49,098 nucleotides of DNA from a virus, in the IMG/VR virus record IMGVR_UViG_3300025789_000007, positions 1 to 49,098 of that record; one strand, 5' to 3'. Positions 5,744-48,408 of the stretch are shown piece after piece; position 1 is the first letter of the stretch; every line of letters begins with the position of its first letter. The notes under the pieces are model-generated. The model worked only from the letters and a program-made list of their open reading frames with translations, was not told where the DNA came from and did no database searches. Both the position numbers and the translations under genes were made by a program.

Positions 5744-6769
5744 ATGTCAGGTTTTGCTCCTTCATTTGTAACAGTAAATCCGCACTACATGATGCCTGAG
5801 TTGATTATGCAATACAGCTTGGCTTCAGGTGCTTTTACAACCCTTGCTACAGAAAATCCAATGCCTCGCCTTGGCGAAGCGGATTTGTATGTTTATGCTA
5901 AAAAGATTCAGTTGACAACTCAGGTTGCAGCTAATCAATCTACAGCTAACCAACTGCCTAGCGCATCTGTAATCCCTTCAATGATCTCTACAGCGACTTA
6001 TCGCTTGCAAACTCGTGCTCAGTATGACAACTTCGATGAAGCTGCTACTGGTGCATGGGGCTATGCGCTGCCACAAGCAATGCGCCTGGCTGCTCGCCAA
6101 GGTATCGCCCAACAACTTCGCAATGCTTTGTTGTATGGCTATAACCCTGCTAATGGCGAAGGTCTAGTAAACACCAATGGTGCTACCCATCAAGTTTTGG
6201 GTTCAGACACCAATGGCAATACTGGCTACAGCACATGGGATAGCGGTCAACTTGCTCAGTATTTGCTGAACATGATTGGCAGCTTGAAAGTGTCTACTTT
6301 GCAAATCGGTCAACCTTTGCGCTTAGTTTTCCTTGCTCCACAGCGATTCATTAGCCAAATCTCCTACTCTGGTGTAGTGTCCTTGACACAATTCCAGCGC
6401 ATTGGTGCTGGTGTTGAAACTGCTGCTGGCTTGGTTGAGACTGTCGCACAATGGGCAGGTGGCGATGATGTTTCATTCGCTGCTGATGACACTTTGATTG
6501 GTCAAGGTGCTGGTGGTACAGATTTGATCCTTTTGATTGCTCCAGAATTAAAGATTCCTAAAGCAAATGCTCAAATCAATACCAACATTTTTGCAACATT
6601 GACACCTAATCAGACTGCAACTTCATTGATGTTGACTGATGTGTCTGCTCCTACTGAAATCCCTACTCCTATTGCTGATGGTGGTATTACTACCCTCTAC
6701 ACTATGCGTAGCACTTCAGGTTGGGGTATTCGCCCAGAAGCAATCAGCCTTTTGTCTGCTGCTTACTAA
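5744..6769 (+). CDS. Major capsid protein (DUF2184-like, HK97 fold expected)
   Basis: This 341-residue protein lies at the end of the head operon, just before a strong terminator, with ribosome site AAAGGAAAA. Its sequence (MPELIMQYSLASGAF near the N-terminus, then a helical RLAARQGIAQQLRNALLYGY) and length fit the DUF2184 capsid group, which often accompanies DUF2213 proteases. About 340 residues is a normal size for a mature HK97-fold shell protein. The family name comes from sequence pattern and context. Confidence 0.8.
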   Translation: MSGFAPSFVTVNPHYMMPELIMQYSLASGAFTTLATENPMPRLGEADLYVYAKKIQLTTQVAANQSTANQLPSASVIPSMISTATYRLQTRAQYDNFDEAATGAWGYALPQAMRLAARQGIAQQLRNALLYGYNPANGEGLVNTNGATHQVLGSDTNGNTGYSTWDSGQLAQYLLNMIGSLKVSTLQIGQPLRLVFLAPQRFISQISYSGVVSLTQFQRIGAGVETAAGLVETVAQWAGGDDVSFAADDTLIGQGAGGTDLILLIAPELKIPKANAQINTNIFATLTPNQTATSLMLTDVSAPTEIPTPIADGGITTLYTMRSTSGWGIRPEAISLLSAAY

Positions 6770-6787: not shown

Positions 6788-6814
6788 AAAGCCCCACTTT
6801 GGTGGGGTTTTTTG
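6788..6814 (+). terminator. Intrinsic terminator after the major capsid gene
   Basis: CCCCAC (6792-6797) pairs with GTGGGG (6802-6807) around TTTG, followed by six T residues (6808-6813). It ends the head operon 20 nt after the capsid stop. Confidence 0.85.
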
Positions 6815-6829
6815 TTATCATATTTAGAC

Positions 6830-6903
6830 CTCGTGTGATGCCGAGATGCCTTATATGGGGGGCAGGGAATCCTTAAAGAAGATTCCGCATCATCTGTCCC
6901 CCA
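6830..6903 (+). ncRNA. Structured, possibly pseudoknotted leader RNA before the connector/tail operon
   Basis: Hairpin 1 is CTCG (6830-6833) with CGAG (6842-6845) around an 8-nt loop. Hairpin 2 has a 10-bp outer helix, 6856-6865 with 6894-6903 (one G-U pair), and a 6-bp inner helix, GGAATC (6866-6871) with GATTCC (6881-6886). The 7-nt bulge on its 3' side contains GCATCA (6887-6892), the exact complement of TGATGC (6836-6841) in the loop of hairpin 1, which gives a loop-bulge pseudoknot. The element begins 16 nt after the capsid terminator and ends 18 nt before the next ATG. I cannot match it to a known riboswitch. Confidence 0.6.
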
Positions 6904-6921
6904 CCCTTTTGGGAGAATTAA

Positions 6922-21602: not shown

Positions 21603-24600
21603 ATGGGCATCCTATTATTTGCTAATCAGGCTCAAACAACTCTTGCTTTACCTGTAGCAAGTACCGATACCACCATTTATGTCGCTGCTGGAACTGGAGC
21701 ATACTTTCCTTCTCCTTCAGCGAATCAGTCAGTAACTCTTACCCTTGTTAACTCTACCAATAATTTAATTGTTGAGATTATTTCTTGCACCCATATTGTT
21801 GGCGATGCGCTGACAGTAGTTCGAGGTCAAGAAGGAACTATTCCTAGAGCCTGGCAGCGAGGTGACTTTGTTACCAATCTTATGACTGCTGGTACTGCAA
21901 GTGCCTTTACACAAATCTATGGCATGAATAATGCCTTATATTCTCCGCACTTTGTCAATACTCTCACCGACTCTGGACAAGTTACTGCTGTCCCTGTCAA
22001 TCCTACTGACTTGGTTAATAAGCAATATGCTGATTCCATTTCTACAGGCGCAGCAAAATATGAATGTCAATGTGCCACTACTGGCAATATTACCCTTTCT
22101 GGGCTACAAACTATTGATGGATATACCACTTTAGCTGGTGATCGAGTTGTAGTCAGGGCGCAAGATAATGCTGCTTACAATGGTATCTGGGTTGCTTCTA
22201 CAACTGCTTGGGTTAGAGCAGCCGACATGGAAGCCTGGGTACAAATCCCAGGTGCAACTACCTTTGTACAAAATGGCACTTTATATGCCAAAACTGGTTG
22301 GGTAGCGATTGTCCCTGAAACTGGCACAATTAATGTCACTCCTATTACTTGGACTCAAATTTCTGGTGCTGGCACTTATACTGCTGGTACAGGGTTAACC
22401 CTTACTGGTACTCAATTTAGTATCACCAATACTGGTGTTACCGCAGGATCTTATGGTACTGCTGCTTATGTACCAGCTTTAGTTTTAAATGCCCAAGGTC
22501 AAGTTACTAGCGCAACCAATACTCCAATCAGTATTGCGCCTAGCCAGATTAATACGACTATCCCAAATTCAGGGCTTACTAATTCATCAATCACTATTGG
22601 TACTACAAATGTAGCATTAGGGTCTACCCTGACTACTTTGACAGGTACTTCAATTAGTGGTGCGACCAATACTTTAACTGCTATTCCTAATAGCGCATTA
22701 GTTAACAATTCCATTACTATTAATGGTAATGCAGTTGCATTGGGGGGTAGCACTACTGTCACCGCAGTTACTCCTTATGCTTTAACTATTGGTACAGGGC
22801 TATCTGGTGGCTCATTTAATGGCTCTAGCGCAGTTACTATTGCCTTGGCTAATACCGCAGTCACCGCAGGTTCTTATGGCTCTGCTGGCTCTGTAGCAAC
22901 CTTTACTGTCAATGCCCAGGGACAACTTACCGCAGCCACTACAACCTCTATTGCGATTACCAATACTCAGGTTTCTGGTCTTGGAACTATGTCTACCCAA
23001 AATGCCAATAGTGTGGCTATAACTGGTGGAACAATCTCTGGTGTATCTCTGACCTTAGATAGTTTAGATAACACTCCTATAGGCTCTACAACCCCTTCTA
23101 CTGGCAAATTTACAACCCTTTCTGCCAATAGTACTGTCACCCTAGGAAACTATACTGGCTATGTTTATGCCAATGGTGCTGGTGCGATTACTGCATCAAC
23201 TACTATTCCGACTATTGCACTTAGTGGCACTATCAGCTTAACCACTCAGGTAAGTGGAATCCTGCCTATTGTCAATGGCGGTACTGGATTAAGCACCCTT
23301 CCGACCAATGGTCAAATTGATATTGGTAATGGAACTGGCTTTACTAGAACAACTCTGACTGCTGGTACTGGTATTGCCATTACTAATGCTGCTGGATCAA
23401 TTACCATTGCAGTCGATGGAAGTGGTGAAGTTACTTCATTTAGAACTTCTTTATCAGGCTTAACTCCTAGCACCGCAACTGGTGGCAATATTGTTTTAGC
23501 TGGAACTTTGGGAGCAGCTTCAGGTGGTACTGGTGCGACTACATTGACAGGCTATGTCTATGGAAATGGTACTGGAGCAATGACCGCTTCTACTACCATC
23601 CCAAATACTGCAATTACTGGCTTGGGTACAATGAGTACTCAAAATGCCAATGCAGTAGCAATTACTGGTGGCACAATTTCTGGAGTTGCTTTAACTCTAG
23701 ATAGCTTAAATAGCACTCCTATTGGATCGACTTCTGCTTCTACTGGTAAATTTACCACCCTGGAAGCTACTGGCAATTTGACCTTTGATAGCTATACTGG
23801 TTACATTTATGGCAATGCAAGTGGCTTGGTTACTGCTTCTGCAACCATTCCGACTACTGCTTTAAGTGGCACTATCACTAATGCCCAATTAGCCAATAGT
23901 TCAGTTACCTACAATGGTGTGACAGTATCTTTAGGTGGCTCTGGCACAATTACTGCCAACACCACCAACTCGCTGACCTTTAATACAAGTGGTACTGGTG
24001 ATGCTTCTCCAGTAGTCTTTAATGGCTCGACTGCTCATACCATCTCTTATAACTCAATTGGGGCTAGTCCTTTAGCTGGATCAACCAGCTTGACCACTAC
24101 TGGTACTGTCACTACTGGTACTTGGTCTGCTCTTTTCGGTGCTGTATCAGGTGCAAATTTAACCAATTTAACTGCTGCCAATCTTACTGGTACAACCCTA
24201 CCTTCTTCAATTGTTAACTCAAGTCTGACAAGTGTAGGCACAATTGGAACTGGTGTATGGCATGGTACTGCTATTACCCCTGCTTATGGTGGAACTGGTG
24301 CATCAACCTTAACTGGTTATGTGTATGGCAATGGTACAAGCACCATGACTGCTTCTACCACTATCCCTACTACCGCACTTAGTGGGACAGTCACCAATGC
24401 TCAACTTGCCAATAGTTCAGTTACAGTCGGTGGTACTGCAATTAGCCTGGGTGGATCAGGCAGCTTCCCATTAGAAAACTTAACTGATGTGGCAGTAGCT
24501 GATGCTACAGTTGGACAGCTTTTAGGCTGGAATGGTTCTTCTTGGGTCAATGTAAATAACACTCCAAGTGGTAGTGCAGGTCAAGGTGTTTCCTTTTGGA

Positions 24601-27332
24601 ACTCAACTCCTTTAATTACTGGTACAGGTACAAACAATGTCCTGCCAATTATTACTCTTGCAACAACTCCAGTAACCGCAGGTGGAACTCAAACCGCATC
24701 ATCTAATCCTAACAACAATACTATTGCTGCAATTGGTCTGCAATCAGGAGTATTGGGTAGAACTATTCTTGATGCTGGTCAATGGACTTTTGATATTTAT
24801 ATTGGTGTTAACTCTACTGCTGGTGGTAGAACTACTACTTTCACTAGAAATACTTATCAAATCATTCCATCCACCGCTACAAGTGTTACTTTAACAACAA
24901 CTGGTACTGGAACTTCTAGGACTGTAACCGCTTCTGCATCTTTCTTTAGCACCGCAGTAGCTTCAGCAACAAATACTGTAGCGGATTATTTAGAAACCCC
25001 ACAAGGTCTTTATCAGATTACTGCTAAGGCATCTGCCACTTCTGTAACTATTACTGTCCCTAGTACTTATGCTAATGAAACATCTGTAAATGGTAGTCTT
25101 TGGCATAATTTATTTGGAGTAACTTCTCCAAATATTACCAACATTACACCGAATTATGGTCTTTATGTAGTACAAACTACACAACCAGCATTTAATATTA
25201 ATGTAACTGATTCTTTGGGTGGCATTGGATTCACCACTTCTACCGCAAATACTACTGTAACTGCTGCCTACAATGGCACTCAGTATGCTTCTAATGTGCT
25301 GACTCCATTAGTTACTTTGCATGATGGATTGGGTGGCTTGCAGGGTGGTTCAGCGAACCAGTATTACCACTTAACCAATACTGAATATACTGGTACTGGA
25401 TCAGGTAATTTTGTAAGACAAAGCAATCCTTCTTTAATTGCACCTAATTTAGATACACCTACTTCTCTTACTTTAACCAATGCTACAGGGCTTCCTTTAA
25501 CTACAGGTGTTACTGGAACTTTGCCAGTAAGTAATGGCGGTTCAGGTGCAACCACTTTAACTGGCTATTTGATTGGTAATGGTACAAGTGCATTTACAGC
25601 TTCTTCTACCATCCCCACTACTGCATTGTCTGGAACAATTACCAATGCTCAATTGGCTAATTCGACTATTTCTGGAGTAGCTTTAGGTTCTAACTTATTT
25701 GCTTTGACTTTGGGAACTGGACTTTCTGGTACTTCCTACAATGGCTCTGCTGCGATTACTGCTGCAATTGCCAATACTACTGTCACCGCAGGAAGTTATA
25801 CCCTAGGCAACTTTACTGTCAATGCTCAAGGTCAATTGACTGCTGCATCCTCTACCTCTACAACTGGTAGCGGATTGGTTGTTTTAGCCAATAGTCCTAC
25901 TTTAGTGACCCCAGTATTGGGTGCTGCCAGCGCAACATCCTTGACTCTAACTAATGCCTTGGCAGTAGCTTATGGCGGTACTGGAGCATCTACCGCAGGT
26001 ATTACTGCCTTTAACAATATTACTGGCTATAGTGCTTCAGGTGCTACTGGCACTACTTCTAGCAGCCTAGTATTTTCTAATAGCCCAACTTTGGTAACTC
26101 CAGTATTGGGAGTGGCTACTGGTACTTCTTTACAAGTCACTAATGGTTTTTATTCTACTGGCACTTATGGCGGTACTTATACTGATGGCATTGTCATTGA
26201 CTACTCTACTGGCAATGGTCGCATTAGTGTAGGTGGCGCAGATGGCATTAGCTTCTACAATGGTGGTGTTGCTACTACCTTATTGGGCGCAGTCAATTCT
26301 TCTGGTGTATGGACTTTACCAACCCTCAATCTAACTAATGCTTTAGGCATTGCTTATGGTGGTACTGGTTTAACTTCTACACCTACCAATGGTCAAATCG
26401 ACATCGGAAATGGTACTGGATTTACCAGGACTACATTAACTGCTGGTACTGGAATCTCGATTACCAATGGTGCAGGTTCGATCACTATTGCCATTAATGG
26501 TACTGGTGAAGTAACTAGCTTCCAGACTAGCCTATCAGGGTTAACCCCTAGTACTGCTACAGGTGGCGCAGTAACCCTGGCTGGTACTTTAGGGGCTGCA
26601 TCTGGTGGTACTGGAGCAACTACCCTTACTGGATATGTATATGGTAATGGCACTTCAGCGATGACTGCCAGTACCACTATTCCAACTACTGCGCTATCAG
26701 GCACTATTACCAATGCTCAATTAGCAAATTCTTCCATCACTATTAATGGTACTTCTACCAGCTTGGGTGGATCAATTTCAGTCGGTACTGTCACTTCAAT
26801 TACTGCTGGTACTGGTTTATCAGGTGGCACTATTACCACTACTGGAACTATTGCTCTTGCTAATACTACTGTAACTGCTGGCTCTTATACCAATGCAAGC
26901 ATTACTGTCAATGCACAAGGTCAGATTACCGCAGCTTCAAGTGGTGCAGCGACTGTCACTTCTTTCCAGACTTCTTTATCTGGTTTAACTCCTAATACAT
27001 CTACTACTGGTGCAGTCACTTTGGCTGGTACTTTGGGTGTAGCAAGTGGTGGTACTGGAGTTACAACTCTGACAGGTCTGGCTTATGGCAATGGTACTTC
27101 TGCCTTTACCGCAGCTACCGCAGCGCAAGTAGTTTCAGTCATTGGAACTACCGCAGTAACCAATGCGACTAATGCAGCCAATGTGAATTTGGCAGCAGGA
27201 TCAGGTGCTACCAACTATCTAGTGTTCGCTGCTAGTGCTACTGGTAATACCGCAGAATATACCAATACTGCCCTGACATACAATTACACCAATAATGCTA
27301 TAACTGGTGGTATCAATGGTGGCAGTTTTTAA
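21603..27332 (+). CDS. Giant repetitive tail fibre, 1909 aa
   Basis: Residues 1-100 form the shared attachment domain. Residues about 140-270 form a familiar fibre module (NPTDLVNKQYADS ... GDRVVVRAQDNAAYNGIWV). Most of the remainder consists of imperfect Thr/Gly/Ser repeats around the cores SGGTGATTLTGYVYGNGT, AMTASTTIPTTALSGTITNA and FTVNAQGQLTAA. Residues about 960-1260 contain a less repetitive globular block. At more than 12% of the genome it is the longest gene. It is open throughout with no frameshift. Repeat number is likely to vary by recombination. Confidence 0.85.
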   Translation: MGILLFANQAQTTLALPVASTDTTIYVAAGTGAYFPSPSANQSVTLTLVNSTNNLIVEIISCTHIVGDALTVVRGQEGTIPRAWQRGDFVTNLMTAGTASAFTQIYGMNNALYSPHFVNTLTDSGQVTAVPVNPTDLVNKQYADSISTGAAKYECQCATTGNITLSGLQTIDGYTTLAGDRVVVRAQDNAAYNGIWVASTTAWVRAADMEAWVQIPGATTFVQNGTLYAKTGWVAIVPETGTINVTPITWTQISGAGTYTAGTGLTLTGTQFSITNTGVTAGSYGTAAYVPALVLNAQGQVTSATNTPISIAPSQINTTIPNSGLTNSSITIGTTNVALGSTLTTLTGTSISGATNTLTAIPNSALVNNSITINGNAVALGGSTTVTAVTPYALTIGTGLSGGSFNGSSAVTIALANTAVTAGSYGSAGSVATFTVNAQGQLTAATTTSIAITNTQVSGLGTMSTQNANSVAITGGTISGVSLTLDSLDNTPIGSTTPSTGKFTTLSANSTVTLGNYTGYVYANGAGAITASTTIPTIALSGTISLTTQVSGILPIVNGGTGLSTLPTNGQIDIGNGTGFTRTTLTAGTGIAITNAAGSITIAVDGSGEVTSFRTSLSGLTPSTATGGNIVLAGTLGAASGGTGATTLTGYVYGNGTGAMTASTTIPNTAITGLGTMSTQNANAVAITGGTISGVALTLDSLNSTPIGSTSASTGKFTTLEATGNLTFDSYTGYIYGNASGLVTASATIPTTALSGTITNAQLANSSVTYNGVTVSLGGSGTITANTTNSLTFNTSGTGDASPVVFNGSTAHTISYNSIGASPLAGSTSLTTTGTVTTGTWSALFGAVSGANLTNLTAANLTGTTLPSSIVNSSLTSVGTIGTGVWHGTAITPAYGGTGASTLTGYVYGNGTSTMTASTTIPTTALSGTVTNAQLANSSVTVGGTAISLGGSGSFPLENLTDVAVADATVGQLLGWNGSSWVNVNNTPSGSAGQGVSFWNSTPLITGTGTNNVLPIITLATTPVTAGGTQTASSNPNNNTIAAIGLQSGVLGRTILDAGQWTFDIYIGVNSTAGGRTTTFTRNTYQIIPSTATSVTLTTTGTGTSRTVTASASFFSTAVASATNTVADYLETPQGLYQITAKASATSVTITVPSTYANETSVNGSLWHNLFGVTSPNITNITPNYGLYVVQTTQPAFNINVTDSLGGIGFTTSTANTTVTAAYNGTQYASNVLTPLVTLHDGLGGLQGGSANQYYHLTNTEYTGTGSGNFVRQSNPSLIAPNLDTPTSLTLTNATGLPLTTGVTGTLPVSNGGSGATTLTGYLIGNGTSAFTASSTIPTTALSGTITNAQLANSTISGVALGSNLFALTLGTGLSGTSYNGSAAITAAIANTTVTAGSYTLGNFTVNAQGQLTAASSTSTTGSGLVVLANSPTLVTPVLGAASATSLTLTNALAVAYGGTGASTAGITAFNNITGYSASGATGTTSSSLVFSNSPTLVTPVLGVATGTSLQVTNGFYSTGTYGGTYTDGIVIDYSTGNGRISVGGADGISFYNGGVATTLLGAVNSSGVWTLPTLNLTNALGIAYGGTGLTSTPTNGQIDIGNGTGFTRTTLTAGTGISITNGAGSITIAINGTGEVTSFQTSLSGLTPSTATGGAVTLAGTLGAASGGTGATTLTGYVYGNGTSAMTASTTIPTTALSGTITNAQLANSSITINGTSTSLGGSISVGTVTSITAGTGLSGGTITTTGTIALANTTVTAGSYTNASITVNAQGQITAASSGAATVTSFQTSLSGLTPNTSTTGAVTLAGTLGVASGGTGVTTLTGLAYGNGTSAFTAATAAQVVSVIGTTAVTNATNAANVNLAAGSGATNYLVFAASATGNTAEYTNTALTYNYTNNAITGGINGGSF
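23301..23608 (+). repeat. Long repeat unit in the giant fibre, copy 1
   Basis: This roughly 100-codon unit, from TNGQIDIGNGTGFTRTTLTA to AMTASTTIP, is nearly the same as the protein encoded at 26381-26683. Differences are scattered conservative changes (for example VDGSGEV against INGTGEV). Shorter relatives occur near 23.8, 24.3 and 25.5 kb. Confidence 0.7.
26381..26683 (+). repeat. Long repeat unit in the giant fibre, copy 2
   Basis: This is the second copy of the unit at 23301-23608, in the same reading frame about 3.1 kb downstream. The pair could recombine and remove roughly 1,000 residues of the shaft without a frameshift. Confidence 0.7.
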
Positions 27333-38370: not shown

Positions 38371-38676
38371 TTACAAGTCAATGATTAAAGATTTAAAGCT
38401 GATTGAATCTATGAAATTTTCTAAATTGACAGAATAATCGGAAATAATTTCAAGACCATCGTTAAAGAAATTCAATGAAATAAAACCATTGTTGTTATTG
38501 CCATCTAGCTCAAGTTCAACAAAGTCACAGTTAAAAGCATTTTTTAAAATCTTTTCAATACTTTTTGATGGTTTGCAAATAGTTTCACCATCTGCACTCA
38601 CTCCAACTTTATAACTTAAAGCTAAAGCTGTTTCTACAATTCTCTTGGTTACTGCTTTTTCTACAGTTGTAAGCAT
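38371..38676 (-). CDS. Hypothetical early protein, 101 aa
   Basis: This is the first gene of the leftward operon, just after its promoter and CACGAAAGG leader. The protein is mixed alpha/beta (TVEKAVTKRIVETALALSY, FVELELDGNNNNGFISLNFF). It resembles no family I recognise. Confidence 0.7.
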   Translation of the reverse strand: MLTTVEKAVTKRIVETALALSYKVGVSADGETICKPSKSIEKILKNAFNCDFVELELDGNNNNGFISLNFFNDGLEIISDYSVNLENFIDSISFKSLIIDL

Positions 38677-38713
38677 TTTGATTTCCTTTCGTGGGTTATC
38701 GAACTACACAAGT

Positions 38714-42236: not shown

Positions 42237-43235
42237 TTATACCTTGTTTATACATCCTCGGAATTCAAATTCATCCTCACCAGATACCATAACCAACTCT
42301 GGCATTAACATTCTGCCATTTTCCCATGACAGTAGGACAAACCCTGATCGCCAATCTACTGGCGCATCTTCTGTATAATGTACAAAGGCATCGGAATGAA
42401 TATCGGCTAGTGTTCCAGTTTGAACACCCCATCTAGTTCCCATGTTGAAGGCAGGGCTGAGATCGGTAATAGGAAATGCGGATAAATTGTGGGTATGCCC
42501 ACAGATATAATTGATGCCCGAATTCAGGGCATTGCTCCTAGTAGCACCGAAACCACCCTTCCATCGGTGTTTTATGCAAGTATCTTCATTGACCCAAAAA
42601 GACCAGCAAGATTTCCACATCGGAAAATGATCTTTCAGGCTAAAACCGAGAATACCTTCATAAGTCGCTGCGCCTGAATTTGACAGAAATGTTTCGAATC
42701 TAGCGTCATGGTTACCCAGACACCATATTAAAGGAGTATCTTTTCTGGCAGCATTTTCAATTCCTGTCATAAATTCCTGACAGGCTTCAAGTTCTTCTTT
42801 TACTGTAGGAGTTTGAGACCAATTGATTCTCTTATGTGCGCTATTTTGACTTCCATCGAACATATCGCCATTGGCTACAATCGCTTTAAGTTCACCTTTA
42901 AAAGCCTTAATCATGGCTAATAGTGCTTTATAAGCTGTAGTTACTTCGCCTGGCTGAAAGTGAGCATCACTAAAAACTATGACTCGACCTTTATCTGGAA
43001 TCTCAATACCCCTTCTAACATGACCAGAGGTTTGATCTATTTTTTTAATATTAGTCCGACCAGTAGCTTGTGGATTAAAGGTAGGTAACTCTATTTGATA
43101 CTTTAATTCCAAAGCCCTTCTTCTAGCATGGACTGATCGAATACCCATTTTCAATGCTCTTGATACTCTATCTGGACTACCCAATTCTTTCCAACATTCG
43201 ATGAATTGCTCATCAGTAGCAAGGTAATTAGACAT
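42237..43235 (-). CDS. Calcineurin-like metallophosphoesterase, 332 aa
   Basis: Metal-binding motifs are intact and in order: D90-A-H92, GD124-x2-D127, GN175-H176-D177 and GH247-T-H249. An N-terminal helix-turn-helix-like segment (SPDRVSRALKMGIRSVHARR, 20-39) could bind DNA. Such enzymes act on nucleic acids or nucleotides; related phage proteins are often annotated as DNA repair exonucleases. The substrate is not evident. It is transcribed leftward from a promoter back-to-back with that of the terminase operon. Confidence 0.85.
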   Translation of the reverse strand: MSNYLATDEQFIECWKELGSPDRVSRALKMGIRSVHARRRALELKYQIELPTFNPQATGRTNIKKIDQTSGHVRRGIEIPDKGRVIVFSDAHFQPGEVTTAYKALLAMIKAFKGELKAIVANGDMFDGSQNSAHKRINWSQTPTVKEELEACQEFMTGIENAARKDTPLIWCLGNHDARFETFLSNSGAATYEGILGFSLKDHFPMWKSCWSFWVNEDTCIKHRWKGGFGATRSNALNSGINYICGHTHNLSAFPITDLSPAFNMGTRWGVQTGTLADIHSDAFVHYTEDAPVDWRSGFVLLSWENGRMLMPELVMVSGEDEFEFRGCINKV

Positions 43236-43259: not shown

Positions 43260-43287
43260 ATCTTAACTGAATTTAATGATTAATCAA
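43260..43287 (-). promoter_or_regulatory. Leftward promoter for phosphoesterase/Ntn hydrolase operon
   Basis: On the minus strand: -35 TTGATT (43282-43287), 16-bp spacer, -10 TAAGAT (43260-43265). The -35 overlaps the palindrome TGATTAATCA (43277-43286), which could be an operator. Confidence 0.5.
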
Positions 43288-43316
43288 TGACATAATTATT
43301 AACCCTATGCTAATAT
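43287..43316 (+). promoter_or_regulatory. Rightward promoter for the terminase operon
   Basis: -35 ATGACA (43287-43292), 18-bp spacer, -10 TAATAT (43311-43316). The expected start, about 7 nt downstream, falls at 43323, the first base of a long inverted repeat. The -35 touches the -35 of the leftward promoter. Confidence 0.6.
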
Positions 43317-43322
43317 GACATC

Positions 43323-43384
43323 GTCAGATAGGGTACAACTGTCCTTGTATGCCACAAATAGTCAAAAGCTATTTCCTATCTGAC
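43323..43384 (+). ncRNA. Three-way-junction leader RNA before the terminase genes (or packaging site)
   Basis: GTCAGATAGG (43323-43332) pairs perfectly with CCTATCTGAC (43375-43384). Inside are TACAA (43334-43338) with TTGTA (43345-43349) and AAATAG (43356-43361) with CTATTT (43369-43374). The predicted transcript would start at the first paired base. The position just before the small terminase gene also fits a cos or pac site. Confidence 0.5.
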
Positions 43385-43407
43385 ACTTTTAGTTAGATAT
43401 TATTGAT

Positions 43408-43836
43408 ATGGGTAGACCCTCAAGTTATTCCGAAGAACTAGCAGATGAGATTTGTTTAAGACTCTCTTATGGAGAGGGACTTGTCAAAATTTGCAAGGAT
43501 GAGCATATACCAGCGAGAAGTACTGTAATACTGTGGCTGTTAAAGAATAAGACTTTTTCGGACAAGTACGCACAGGCGAGAGAAGCCCAAGCAGATTTTC
43601 TCTTAGAAGAACTATTAGATATTGCTGATGCTACTGAGGGAGATATGCTTCTGGACAAAGATGGCAATCCTACTGGTAAAGTTAACCATGAGAATATTAA
43701 TAGATCCAGATTAAGGGTCGATACTCGTAAATGGGTTATAACAAAGTTAGCACCGAAGAAATATGGTGATCGAGTAGAAGAAGTCGCTAAAGAAGAACTA
43801 ACCATTCACAATGTCCCGACTAAAACAAAAAAGTGA
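43408..43836 (+). CDS. terS: Terminase small subunit
   Basis: This 142-residue protein begins GRPSSYSEELADEICLRLSY with a helix-turn-helix (GLVKICKDEHIPARSTVILW), then a coiled DFLLEELLDIAD and a C-terminal region with RLRVDTRKWVITKLAPKKYG, the common small terminase pattern. No clear ribosome site precedes the ATG. It overlaps the large subunit by 26 bases. Confidence 0.85.
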   Translation: MGRPSSYSEELADEICLRLSYGEGLVKICKDEHIPARSTVILWLLKNKTFSDKYAQAREAQADFLLEELLDIADATEGDMLLDKDGNPTGKVNHENINRSRLRVDTRKWVITKLAPKKYGDRVEEVAKEELTIHNVPTKTKK

Positions 43837-45112
43837 AGAAATCATAGAGTTGCAGCCATTCCATGATGGACAGCAAGCAGCCTATGATAATGAAAGCAGA
43901 TTCTTTGTAATCCGATGTGGAAGGCGATGGGGAAAAACCGCAATGATGCAAAATTTAGCGGTGACAGCAGCAGCCAATGGTGAAAAGGTAGGCTGGTTTG
44001 CTCCTGACTATAAAATTCAATCTGAAGCCTTTAGAGAGATCGTAGACCTATTAGCTCCTACCATTGTGTCATCTTCCAAGATTGATGGAATCATTACCAC
44101 TCAAAAGGGTGGGCGCATAGACTTTTGGACTCTGGAAAATGAGAGAGCAGGTCGATCCAGAAAGTACCATAAAGTCTTTATTGATGAAGCAGCCTTTACC
44201 AAGCCAAGTATGATGAAGGTCTGGCAAACTGCTATTAAGCCAGCATTGCTAGACTTCCAGGGTAGTTGTATTGCAGCATCCACTCCTAATGGGGTAGATA
44301 GCAGCAATTTCTTTTGGCAGGTATGCAATGAGCCTGAACATGGATTTACTGAATACCATGCCCCAACCCATACAAACCCATTCCTACCCCAAGAAGAATT
44401 AATCAAGCTGGAAAGGGAAAATCATCCCCTCGTCTATCGTCAAGAGTATTTGGCAGAATTTGTAGATTGGTCTGGTGAAGCCTTCTTTAGTGTAGACAAG
44501 CTGCTAGTCGATAATAAACCAGTTGCCTATCCTACTAAGTGCGATGGTGTCTATGCAGTCATTGATACCGCAGTTAAGGGTGGAAAAGAGAATGATGGTA
44601 CTGCGATTGTCTATGTGGCTGTCGATAAGTACACCCAAAATCCCTACAACTTGATTATTCTTGATTGGGATATTGTGCAGATTGATGGCGCAATGCTAGA
44701 AAATTGGATGCCAAGTGTATTTGCCAGATTGGAAGAACTAGCCAAAGTAACCAATGCCAGGAATGGAGTTGTCGGTACATTCATTGAAGATGCTGCTGCT
44801 GGTTCTATTCTTATACAACAAGGGCGCACTAGAGGATGGAATACATTTGCCATTGACTCTGGACTGACTTCAGTTGGTAAGGATGAAAGAGCCATTTCAG
44901 TATCAGGATACTTTCATCAGGGATTGATGAAGATCAGCGAGTTTGCTTTTGATAAAACTATGACATTCAAAAATGCAAGTCGCAATCATCTATTATCCCA
45001 AGTCACCAGTTTTAGGATTGGCGATAAGGAAGCATACAAAAGAGCAGATGACTTGCTTGATGCTTTTGTGTATAGTCTAGCCATTGGTGTTGGTGATAAA
45101 TATGGCTACTAA
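43811..45112 (+). CDS. terL: Terminase large subunit
   Basis: This 433-residue protein has an ATPase Walker A CGRRWGKT (36-43) and Walker B VFIDEA (122-127). The C-terminal RNase H-like nuclease is suggested by acidic residues in YAVIDTAVKGGKENDGTA, FIEDAAAGS and DDLLDAFVYS. It packages DNA into the prohead through the portal encoded next. Confidence 0.9.
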   Translation: MSRLKQKSEEIIELQPFHDGQQAAYDNESRFFVIRCGRRWGKTAMMQNLAVTAAANGEKVGWFAPDYKIQSEAFREIVDLLAPTIVSSSKIDGIITTQKGGRIDFWTLENERAGRSRKYHKVFIDEAAFTKPSMMKVWQTAIKPALLDFQGSCIAASTPNGVDSSNFFWQVCNEPEHGFTEYHAPTHTNPFLPQEELIKLERENHPLVYRQEYLAEFVDWSGEAFFSVDKLLVDNKPVAYPTKCDGVYAVIDTAVKGGKENDGTAIVYVAVDKYTQNPYNLIILDWDIVQIDGAMLENWMPSVFARLEELAKVTNARNGVVGTFIEDAAAGSILIQQGRTRGWNTFAIDSGLTSVGKDERAISVSGYFHQGLMKISEFAFDKTMTFKNASRNHLLSQVTSFRIGDKEAYKRADDLLDAFVYSLAIGVGDKYGY

Positions 45113-45121
45113 GGAAGAACT

Positions 45122-47395
45122 ATGTCAGATGTAATGATAAATAATACATATCTTGGCGGTGAGTTAATGTCATTGCTTAGTGCTGACAACATTCAACCAG
45201 GCTCACAAGCAGGTTATGAGTTATGTAAGCAAATCTGGACATATCATCCCCTTGGTGGCAAATTAGTAGAAAAGCCTGTAAAACTTGCGCTATCAAAGCC
45301 AAGAACTATTACAATTGATGCTCAACCAAAAGAAATGCTCGCTGAAGCATTTAATAAAGAATGGGAGAGATTGGGTGCTACTAATCATATTAGGGATGTT
45401 ATGTTTATTAATCGCACCTATGGTGCTGCTGGCATTGTTGTGGGGGCTGATAAGATTCCTACTACTGATCCCATTGACCCTTGGATGCTTCCTGATCTTA
45501 ATCTTTATTTTAATCAGCTAGATCCGCTTAATATGGCTGGTTCGATTGTGACGAATCAGAATCCCAATGCGCCTGACTTCCAAAAACCTTTGGCATATAC
45601 TACTGCTGCTGGTCAGCCCTATCATCCTAGCCGAAGTGTTGTTGTTTTTAATGGCACTCCTGTATATCTTCAATTTCAGTCTAGTGCCTTCGGTTTTACA
45701 GGTAGGTCAGTCTTTCAAAGGGCTTTATATCCATTAAAGTCTTTCATTCAGTCGATGATTACCGATGACCTGGTGACATTCAAATCAGGTTTAATCATTG
45801 CTAAACAAAAACCTGCTGGCTCGATTGTCAATCGCTTAATGCAAAATGCTGCTGGTATCAAGCGCACCTATTTGCAAGAAGGCGGTACTGGTAATGTGCT
45901 CTCCATTGATATTGATGAGGAAATCAACTCCATTGATTTGACCAATACCGCAACATCTATGACAACTGCCAGAGATAACATCATTGCTAATATCGCTGCT
46001 GCTTCTGATGTTCCTGCAATGCTGCTTAAAGATGAAGCCTTCACCCAGGGATTTGGTGAGGGTACTGAAGATGCTAAAGCCATTGTGCAATACATTGATG
46101 GCATCCGAGTTGACATGGAAAGCCTATTCGCTTTCTTTGACAAAATTGTCATGCACCGAGCCTGGAATAAAGAATTCTATGAAGCTGTCAAGAAATCCTA
46201 TCCAGAGATTTATCGCAAGATGTCTTATGAGCAAGCCTTCTATAGCTGGCAAAAGAACTTCAAAGCTGAGTGGGAATCCCTCATGGAAGAACCAGAGTCT
46301 GAAAAGGTCAAGGTTGCTGACATCAAGCTAAAAGGTATTACTGAAATTCTTCGGACTGTATTGCCAGTTGCAGATGGTCAAAATAGAGCCATTCTCATTC
46401 AATGGGCGCAAGATAATATCAATGAAATGCCTGATATGTTTCAAAGCAGCTTACAAATTGATACTGATGCCCTGGCTGAATATGAGCCACCGCAAGAGTC
46501 AATGCCAGAAGAAAAAATGCCAAGAGCAGATGGGGGGAAATGGGCTAACCCCATCCCAAAGGCTGATGCTTTCCTAGAAGCAGATCATCCAAGAGATGCT
46601 GATGGGAAATTTACTACTGGTTCAGGTGGTAGTGTTGCTACTGAACCTATGGGTAGACAGACCGCAGCGATTACTGCACCAGTAGCTAAGACTGCGCTGA
46701 TCGAAAAACCACAAGCACCAAAGGCTAAGACTGTCGAAAAGCCAAAAGCACCAACCGCTAATCGAGTGAAAGAGTTGTTATCAGGTAAGCTGCAACAAGC
46801 TGATGTAGAGAGATTGCCTGAAGAAAAGCAAAAAATCTTTACTGAAATGTATGAGAAGGCAGCCGAGAATAAAGATCACTTTGACAATACCAATACAAGG
46901 ATCGCTGAAGAACTAGGTGGTCGGGCTGCCATTGTGCCATTGAAGGGATCGCAAAGAGCAGTCGATAAGATTACTAAGTCTTATGACAATGATCCAACCA
47001 AGATTAAAGATTTACTTCGCACAACCATTGAGATTAAATCGCTAAAGGATGTCAATAGCGCAATTGATAAACTCAAAGCTGAATATGGTGAACCAGTAAA
47101 GCTAAGAAATTTACTTGATCCTAAGACTGACTCATTGGGTGGATCTGGCTATCGAGATGTCAATATGGTAGTTGAGGTAAATGGCTCTTATGCTGAAGTG
47201 CAGATTAATCTACCAGCAATGATGGAAGCCAAAGAAAAGGCACATGGTTACTATGAGGAAGTTCGCATCATTTTAGAAGATGCAGCACAAGCTGGTAAAC
47301 AACTTAATGTCTATGAAGAAGCTAAGGTCAAAAACCTAAATGATAAGATGAAGGCTCTTTATGATGCAGCCTGGGAATCCATCACTAAGGCTTGA
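45122..47395 (+). CDS. Portal protein (DUF1073-like) fused to a RelA/SpoT-synthetase-like domain, 757 aa
   Basis: Residues 1-455 form a portal of the DUF1073 type (FQRALYPLKSFIQSMITDDL, VPAMLLKDEAFTQGFGEGTE). A disordered linker (about 460-555) contains ADHPRDADGKFTTGSGG, a motif often found before extra domains on phage proteins, and Ala/Pro/Lys repeats. Residues about 575-757 look like a RelA/SpoT-type nucleotidyltransferase: KIKDLLRTTIE (D630, R633), SGYRDVNMVVEV (Y677) and AEVQINLPAMMEAKEKAHGY (E692, Q694). These correspond to the catalytic Asp, the guanine-stacking GYxSxH Tyr and the EIQ Glu of Rel synthetases. Possible activities are (p)ppGpp/(p)ppApp synthesis or tRNA pyrophosphorylation. 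The chain overlaps a convergent gene by 37 bases. Confidence 0.78.
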   Translation: MSDVMINNTYLGGELMSLLSADNIQPGSQAGYELCKQIWTYHPLGGKLVEKPVKLALSKPRTITIDAQPKEMLAEAFNKEWERLGATNHIRDVMFINRTYGAAGIVVGADKIPTTDPIDPWMLPDLNLYFNQLDPLNMAGSIVTNQNPNAPDFQKPLAYTTAAGQPYHPSRSVVVFNGTPVYLQFQSSAFGFTGRSVFQRALYPLKSFIQSMITDDLVTFKSGLIIAKQKPAGSIVNRLMQNAAGIKRTYLQEGGTGNVLSIDIDEEINSIDLTNTATSMTTARDNIIANIAAASDVPAMLLKDEAFTQGFGEGTEDAKAIVQYIDGIRVDMESLFAFFDKIVMHRAWNKEFYEAVKKSYPEIYRKMSYEQAFYSWQKNFKAEWESLMEEPESEKVKVADIKLKGITEILRTVLPVADGQNRAILIQWAQDNINEMPDMFQSSLQIDTDALAEYEPPQESMPEEKMPRADGGKWANPIPKADAFLEADHPRDADGKFTTGSGGSVATEPMGRQTAAITAPVAKTALIEKPQAPKAKTVEKPKAPTANRVKELLSGKLQQADVERLPEEKQKIFTEMYEKAAENKDHFDNTNTRIAEELGGRAAIVPLKGSQRAVDKITKSYDNDPTKIKDLLRTTIEIKSLKDVNSAIDKLKAEYGEPVKLRNLLDPKTDSLGGSGYRDVNMVVEVNGSYAEVQINLPAMMEAKEKAHGYYEEVRIILEDAAQAGKQLNVYEEAKVKNLNDKMKALYDAAWESITKA

Positions 47396-47577
47396 AATAC
47401 TTGAGCATTGCTAGGCAGCAGGAATTCTTCTTTGAGTGAAAATTCTTTTGGTTCACCTTTAATCCAGATAGCTACCATTGGTATATCTTTTCCAGCATTG
47501 ACTGATACTGGCAAACCATCTTCTGAAGTTACATAGAAGATAGCTGATGGACTGATTTCGTAATTACCAATTTTCAT
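47359..47577 (-). CDS. Hypothetical protein, 72 aa
   Basis: ATG 47577 is chosen because GAAAGGG precedes it. The protein is beta-rich: MKIGNYEISPSAIFYVTSED, then IPMVAIWIKGEPKEFSLKE. Its 3' end overlaps the end of the portal gene on the other strand. Unrecognised. Confidence 0.65.
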   Translation of the reverse strand: MKIGNYEISPSAIFYVTSEDGLPVSVNAGKDIPMVAIWIKGEPKEFSLKEEFLLPSNAQVFQALVMDSQAAS

Positions 47578-47608
47578 ATATTGCCCTTTCAATTCATTTT
47601 ATCATATA

Positions 47609-47632
47609 ACAAAAAGCCCTCAAAAGGGCTTG
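47609..47632 (-). terminator. Intrinsic terminator for leftward accessory genes
   Basis: On the minus strand AAGCCC pairs with GGGCTT around a short loop, followed by TTTTT. It lies 16 nt after the stop of the gene at 47648. On the plus strand no T-run follows. Confidence 0.7.
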
Positions 47633-47647
47633 TAATAATAGGAATTT

Positions 47648-47830
47648 TTACTCGTAGACCACTTCGACATCCGAGCACAATTCGCTAATATAGGCAGCAC
47701 ACTCTGGATTGTTATTGGAATCAAACTCAGAAATAGCATCTTCTTTTGAGAATCCGCTATAGAGAATGAAGTACTTCAAACAATCGTCATAATCAACTTC
47801 CGAACTTTCAATAAAATATTTGACTGACAT
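47648..47830 (-). CDS. Hypothetical acidic protein, 60 aa
   Basis: This acidic protein (SSEVDYDDCLKYFILYSGFS, KEDAISEFDSNNNPECAAYI) has pI clearly below neutral by composition. It starts after the ACCACGAAAGGG box and ends before the terminator. Function unknown; small acidic proteins of this sort sometimes inhibit host enzymes or defences. Confidence 0.7.
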   Translation of the reverse strand: MSVKYFIESSEVDYDDCLKYFILYSGFSKEDAISEFDSNNNPECAAYISELCSDVEVVYE

Positions 47831-47846
47831 GATTTCCCTTTCGTGG

Positions 47847-48077
47847 TTATCTTGGTACTTCCAAAATCATTTTGCCATCCATGATTTCAAACAAGATCGC
47901 TTTGGCTCTATTCAAACTCTGCCTGGCTCTCTCATTCGCACCCATCGCAATTTCTTCCTGGGCATCACTCATAAGACCAGCAACAACAATACCAGCCCCA
48001 CCCAACTTGTAGCTGGCTGATGATCTGATCTGCGCTATAAATTGCTCAATGTCGCAACCATACATTTCCTGACTCAT
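47847..48077 (-). CDS. Hypothetical helical protein, 76 aa
   Basis: The start overlaps the upstream stop (ATGA). The protein has a Gly-rich turn (KLGGAGIVVAGLMSDAQEEI) followed by an amphipathic helix (NERARQSLNRAKAILFEIMD). Unrecognised. It belongs to the leftward accessory operon. Confidence 0.65.
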   Translation of the reverse strand: MSQEMYGCDIEQFIAQIRSSASYKLGGAGIVVAGLMSDAQEEIAMGANERARQSLNRAKAILFEIMDGKMILEVPR

Positions 48078-48220
48078 GCTGCACCCCTTTCTTGAAATTG
48101 CTGGATAACTGCTCTAGCAGCAGCAGCCCTGCCCATCTGACCTTTTGCCAAAGCCAAGATCAAAATCCCCTGGGCTTGGGCAATACTGAAAACCTCATAT
48201 CCATACAAAGGCAAACTCAT
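48074..48220 (-). CDS. Small Ala-rich helical protein, 48 aa
   Basis: This is the first gene of the leftward accessory operon, after the TCACGAAAGGAG leader. Sequence: SLPLYGYEVFSIAQAQGILI, then an Ala/Arg helix GRAAAARAVIQQFQERG. It could be a DNA-mimic or helix-bundle protein; no family is recognised. Confidence 0.65.
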   Translation of the reverse strand: MSLPLYGYEVFSIAQAQGILILALAKGQMGRAAAARAVIQQFQERGAA

Positions 48221-48255
48221 TTCAAACTCCTTTCGTGATTAACTACTACACTTAC

Positions 48256-48284
48256 ATATTAATGCTTATTAGGTATAAGCACAA
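48256..48284 (-). promoter_or_regulatory. Leftward early promoter
   Basis: On the minus strand: -35 TTGTGC (48279-48284), 17-bp spacer, -10 TAATAT (48256-48261), then GTAGTAGTTAATCACGAAAG, the shared leader. It is divergent from the promoter at 48341. Confidence 0.6.
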
Positions 48285-48369: not shown

Positions 48370-48408
48370 AAGAATGTAGTCTTAATTAACCACGAAAGGA
48401 AATTAAAA

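Follow-up and report, generated by a model that had tools for sequence, protein, structure and literature searches.

The DNA just upstream of the terminase genes raises the question of what a small, tightly paired element is doing at the predicted start of the packaging-gene mRNA. The window, that is, the whole stretch of 49098 bases that was analysed, is a viral record with identical 127-nt ends (a repeat whose length could reflect assembler overlap). The original prediction held that the terminase transcript begins exactly at a perfect 10-bp helix enclosing two hairpins, that the fully paired 5' end could protect the mRNA or control it, and that a cos or pac site would lie in the same DNA. 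The features around the element are as follows.

42237-43235, minus strand: metallophosphoesterase gene, divergent, the upstream neighbour of the element
43287-43292, plus strand: weak -35-like ATGACA, from the promoter scan
43308-43316, plus strand: extended -10 box TGCTAATAT, with conserved spacing to P1
43323-43384, plus strand: three-way-junction leader RNA, predicted from fold, covariation and a covariance model
43323-43332 (GTCAGATAGG) with 43375-43384 (CCTATCTGAC), plus strand: P1, 10 Watson-Crick pairs
43333-43338 with 43345-43350, plus strand: P2, 6 bp (5 Watson-Crick and a basal G·U)
43339-43344, plus strand: invariant P2 loop, CUGUCC in the window
43351-43355, plus strand: junction
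43356-43362 with 43368-43374, plus strand: P3, 7 bp including a closing U·G, with its loop at 43363-43367
43385-43407, plus strand: A/T-rich stretch from the RNA to the terS start codon, with no evident Shine-Dalgarno sequence
43408-43836, plus strand: terS, Sf6-type small terminase (PF20901)
43811-45112, plus strand: terL, large terminase
45122-47395, plus strand: portal protein gene

The closing helix was found at 43323-43384 with the sequence proposed for it. The two enclosed hairpins are likewise present, with stems of 6 bp (P2, GUACAA CUGUCC UUGUAU) and 7 bp (P3, AAAUAGU CAAAA GCUAUUU) rather than the 5 and 6 bp originally given. The minimum free energy of the element is -20.3 kcal/mol (z = -3.85), and equal stability was reached by none of 200 dinucleotide shuffles and by none of 500 in a second set. 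A search for the exact P1 arms set 36-48 nt apart gave a single site in the window and none in 100 shuffles. When extended -10 boxes within the window were scanned, no second junction of comparable perfection was found, and some coding stretches were as stable as the element when folded. No Rfam covariance model matched in the window at gathering score; nearby there was only one unrelated match (E = 1.6).

Conservation analysis, which had been proposed as a check, revealed that the element is kept in relatives through matching (covarying) mutations. Relatives were gathered by a TerL search (55 viral contigs) and a TerS search (34 loci, partly on the same contigs), and a covariance model built from eight distinct sequences was run against 74 sources. 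The window and 25 of the 55 TerL-related contigs matched with E values of 2.8e-9 or better, upstream of the terminase genes. Two further strong matches were second extracts of the same contigs, and a pattern scan added one element-bearing contig (L120). No match was found in the remaining 30 contigs, at least eight of which end before or near the place where the element would lie (L015, L016, L018, L021, L022, L037, L039 and L056). In others, among them L033, L034, L036 and the L064/L065 group, an extended -10-like box is followed by a short leader without the junction RNA. Exactly one strong copy was present in 12 of the 13 records searched whole, one of these 12 having a weak extra match (E 0.72).

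Five helix types of the element occur; nine pairs differ on both sides among them, and the loop ACUGUCCU never varies. In the 8-row alignment, 94.1% of cells were paired against a shuffled mean of 83.8. Changes on both sides affected 9 of 17 pairs (shuffled mean 3.6) and 16 cells (4.6), and the covariation score was 0.414 (0.206); none of 500 shuffles was as high in any of these measures, counts that are not probabilities because the rows are related by descent. Slid-partner controls gave 0-2 pairs changed on both sides. A measure of further pair types gave 11, not above the shuffled mean of 12.1, and 459 of 500 shuffles were as high. P3 was misaligned by MAFFT and was excluded from the covariation count; it is rewritten between types, and a hairpin is formed in every one. 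All seven types that were folded gave the same three-way junction as the minimum free energy structure (z from -2.37 to -5.07), with 0, 0, 1, 5, 11, 0 and 0 of 500 shuffles as low.

The wobble pairs further indicate which strand is at work. Read on the plus strand, the helices of six representative sequences, as delimited by us, contain 121 Watson-Crick pairs, 11 G·U pairs, one mismatch and no A·C pair; some of the G·U wobbles are shared by descent, yet more than one position is involved. The base immediately flanking P1, a C opposite an A in 5 of 8 rows, was excluded from this count. A·C wobbles would be the expected sign were the opposite strand the RNA. With G·U wobbles on the plus strand and no A·C, it is most likely the sense RNA that functions, and readings as a DNA cruciform or a minus-strand product are disfavoured.

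The promoter adds a fixed point at the 5' side. The last base of TAATAT is 43316, which places the predicted canonical +1 at 43323, the first base of P1. In every type TGnTAATAT (TGATAAAAT in L027) lies 6 nt from P1, or 7 nt in types B and E, and the bases between the -10 box and P1 differ among types while the spacing stays at 6-7 nt. P1 would therefore begin at or within one base of the predicted start, the -10 spacing being what predicts a helix so close to the 5' end. The promoter scan is weak on its own merit (between 42000 and 45000 it gave 4 promoter-like sites, where 8.2 were expected); its weight comes from the -10 to P1 spacing kept in all types. The proposed coincidence of transcript start and helix thus agrees with the canonical +1 and with a spacing that is constant across types. 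Covariation, strand polarity and this constant spacing also lend support to a role of the paired 5' end in protection or control, and the junction RNA at the start of the packaging-gene mRNA looks like a real control element.

Comparison of the relatives argues that the RNA is linked to the promoter and not to terS. Between L012 and L013 the RNA differs by one base and TerS is only 45% identical, and between L012 and L024 TerS is 92% identical and both P2 and P3 are re-paired. A GIY-YIG gene (PF01541) directly follows the RNA in the L013 group, with terS shifted about half a kilobase downstream. This endonuclease gene (L013:3101-3577), which lies between leader RNA and terS, uses the same start-codon region. 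That the RNA is kept with its promoter despite GIY-YIG insertion or TerS replacement speaks against a packaging site read by TerS, and equally against a TerS operator. An inverted repeat in the DNA recognised by terminase would suit the symmetrical arms and the position adjoining terS. It would leave unexplained that the wobbles are G·U only, as fits an RNA of one strand, that RNA and TerS do not co-vary, and that the element is missing from close relatives whose promoter is of the same kind. A pac or cos site is accordingly held to be highly improbable, and this part of the original prediction is not supported.

Structure at a predicted transcript start is found a second time in these phages, after the capsid gene.

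5744-6769, plus strand: major capsid protein gene (phrog_264, major head protein), likely the last of the first late unit
6792-6813, plus strand: intrinsic terminator CCCCACTTTGGTGGGG followed by TTTTTT, after the capsid gene
6814-6906: TGTTATCAT, resembling a promoter box (several relatives have TGTTATAGT), and another conserved RNA

A scan of the late strand found one strong intrinsic terminator, immediately behind the major capsid gene, against 0-2 in each of eight Markov shuffles. At 10 of the 14 loci compared (L151-L160), this terminator is followed by a promoter-like box and the second structured RNA. The latter comprises a hairpin CUCG(UGUGAUGC)CGAG, a 10-bp stem UGGGGGGCAG/CUGUCCCCCA, an inner hairpin GGAAUC/GAUUCC and a pseudoknot of UGAUGC with GCAUCA, which covaries to UCAAGC with GCUUGA in L152 and L155. 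Its helices as delimited pair in all eight sequences examined, some of them from phages that lack the terminase leader RNA. It begins within about 1-3 nt of where the next late unit is predicted to start, has no Rfam family (terminator-like chance matches only) and found only short chance matches in isolate phages. The late region is therefore probably made up of two transcription units. A terminator-like hairpin after the capsid gene is also present in RNA-less relatives and a promoter-like box then follows; the terminator is thus no evidence that the leader must antiterminate.

From features read in the sequence (predicted structure, conservation, sense polarity, -10 spacing and independence from terS), we infer a start site, a protective effect and a partner for the loop. 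The reading preferred, tentatively and with somewhat less than an even chance, is that of a cis-acting 62-nt 5' leader of the late mRNA which shields the 5' end and docks a factor through its loop. The extended -10 promoter would start transcription at the first base of P1, and the 5' end would be buried once the leader is made. The paired end would most likely shield the long late mRNA, encoding packaging and head proteins, from 5'-end-dependent decay of the RppH/RNase E type. That both enzymes are hindered by 5' secondary structure is established in E. coli (PMC3997798). A covarying stem presents the invariant P2 loop ACUGUCCU, which would most likely dock a trans factor. This factor is probably of the host, because no phage gene convincingly tracking the RNA was identified; the gene content of 12 records or loci yielded no convincing candidate. 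NinB together with an SSB-like gene (recognised by eye) was present only in RNA-bearing records among the 12. This pair was set aside as not decisive, since several of the records are fragments and the products are DNA-recombination proteins.

Shielding of the 5' end would account for the fixed position of P1 at +1. Among the readings considered, 5' protection best predicts both this lock and the structured start of the second late unit, as would be expected if structured 5' ends typify the late mRNAs of this phage. It fits less well that a simple hairpin would suffice, which leaves the invariant loop and the three-way junction unaccounted for, and that RNA-less relatives manage with a short leader.

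The strongest rival, rated as somewhat unlikely, is an antiterminator like HK022 put: the folded RNA would bind the emerging RNA polymerase with the loop as the contact, and resistance to terminators in the late region would replace a Q protein. Gene order is suggestive here. Recombination genes (exonuclease and ssDNA-annealing protein) lie on the minus strand, RusA-like, primosomal/O-like, NinB and Ref-like nuclease genes run on the plus strand toward the late promoter, and in L012, L024, L026 and L032 a gene with a Ref-like start sequence ends just before it. This is the lambdoid order replication-RusA-NinB-Ref-[promoter and RNA]-terS, in which the late promoter takes the position of lambda pR', a place at which one would look for a Q gene. 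None of the Q families (PF06530, PF03589, PF06323) was above cut-off in 21 records, many of them fragments, the PF06323 search having no ringing control, and one weak match below cut-off was seen in G014; Q is present in a Rahnella prophage whose terL is related. The absence loses force in that the RNA-less relatives also have no Q matches. An invariant loop implies a specific partner, and a late region with one strong terminator inside it and with minus-strand ORFs (47359-48220) interrupting the head genes might call for antitermination. Nevertheless, the capsid terminator is present equally in RNA-less relatives with a promoter-like box at once after it, so that read-through may be unneeded. 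In position the leader matches putL, which PMC9378689 places just downstream of its promoter with a length of about 70 nt. By the same account HK022 put lies just downstream of PL and consists of two stem-loops. It binds the zinc-binding domain of RNA polymerase and suppresses termination, an activity that for the leader would be a proposal by analogy. Compared by description and not by put sequences, both are structured RNAs of about 60-70 nt directly after a phage promoter (the -10 box being 6-7 nt before P1), and a put-like leader would also act without a dedicated phage protein. In contrast, put has two long V-shaped stem-loops with a triplex and belongs to an early operon, whereas the leader is a predicted three-way junction in 7 of 7 types and belongs to the late operon. 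In a broader form, judged unlikely, the leader would be an RNA-only late switch that replaces Q by docking RNA polymerase or another host machine via ACUGUCCU, with the pseudoknotted RNA doing something comparable at the second promoter.

Two further possibilities place the action of the leader elsewhere. As a translational operator it would bind a protein or RNA and control the first gene or genes. This would suit the lack of an evident Shine-Dalgarno sequence before terS, which starts about 10-23 nt after P1. It would also suit the complementarity of the loop (ACUGUCC) to a GGACAGU that lies 9 nt ahead of the start of terL in several of the types carrying the RNA (for example, L008:3992-4001). 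However, the RNA is kept where the first gene is the GIY-YIG endonuclease and not terS, and GGACAGU is absent from the window and from L027 and is present in RNA-less L034 and L036, within the TerS coding sequence. Pairing of the loop with the terL start was rejected as a general mechanism on these grounds, and a translational operator is considered distinctly unlikely. A compact fold, an invariant loop and a variable distance to terS would also be in keeping with a small RNA, processed or acting in trans, by which a host factor is titrated or mimicked; the promoter would then serve both small RNA and operon. With no plus-strand terminator directly after the element, and a sole copy that always leads into the late operon, this was thought very unlikely.

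The preferred reading of a 5'-shielding leader has a parallel in known stabilisers. In the 5'-terminal mRNA-stabilising stem-loops of the papA and ompA type, pairing likewise reaches the first nucleotide or close to it, as is predicted for the leader, but they are described as hairpins, whereas here a three-way junction carries an invariant loop. The phi29 pRNA likewise has paired 5' and 3' ends, a three-way junction and a phage packaging context. Complementary loops link its copies into a ring, however, while the leader loops CUGUCC and CAAAA (GCAA in L028) are not complementary and the leader heads an mRNA. Lambda Q acts through qut at the late transcript start, and the leader occupies the same place in the gene order and would act, if at all, at the same step. 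Unlike qut, which is a protein-binding DNA site, the element is an RNA structure, and no Q family was found above cut-off.

The element is a new structured leader RNA of a general kind already known, with a distribution that is narrow so far. Isolate phages gave no DNA match to it beyond short chance ones, and the model matched neither four isolate relatives of terL nor 27 bacterial or MAG loci carrying terL relatives. Two exact-pattern scans of all viral contigs for a wider family returned the same phages and chance matches. When TerL relatives were scanned with a custom search for further closed junctions, the matches listed were all unconvincing and mostly coding. The terS leader of a Shewanella isolate has strong hairpins that are unlike the junction element. 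No description of the element was found in the open-licence literature searched.

RNA structure, as opposed to a protein, is known to control only few phage late operons. A small RNA at a predicted late start, with compensatory mutations and independent of the gene behind it, would allow a clean test of two ideas, namely structural capping of late mRNAs by phages, or the loading of an RNA onto RNA polymerase. Because these phages have another conserved RNA, unrelated to the first, at their next promoter-like site, a strategy seems more likely than an accident.

Other features of the window were also recorded. A minus-strand cassette of small ORFs (47359-48220) lies between the portal and head genes, with a terminator-like site near 47614 on its own strand. 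The 1909-aa ORF at 21603-27332 contains many diverged internal repeats and is perhaps tail-fibre-like. A repeated AATCACGAAAGGAAATT-like sequence occurs at 156-173, 818-863, 38674-38703, 48218-48263 and 48385-48408, on both strands and with inverted repeats. In places it stands just before a start codon, and it is perhaps a shared leader or operator.
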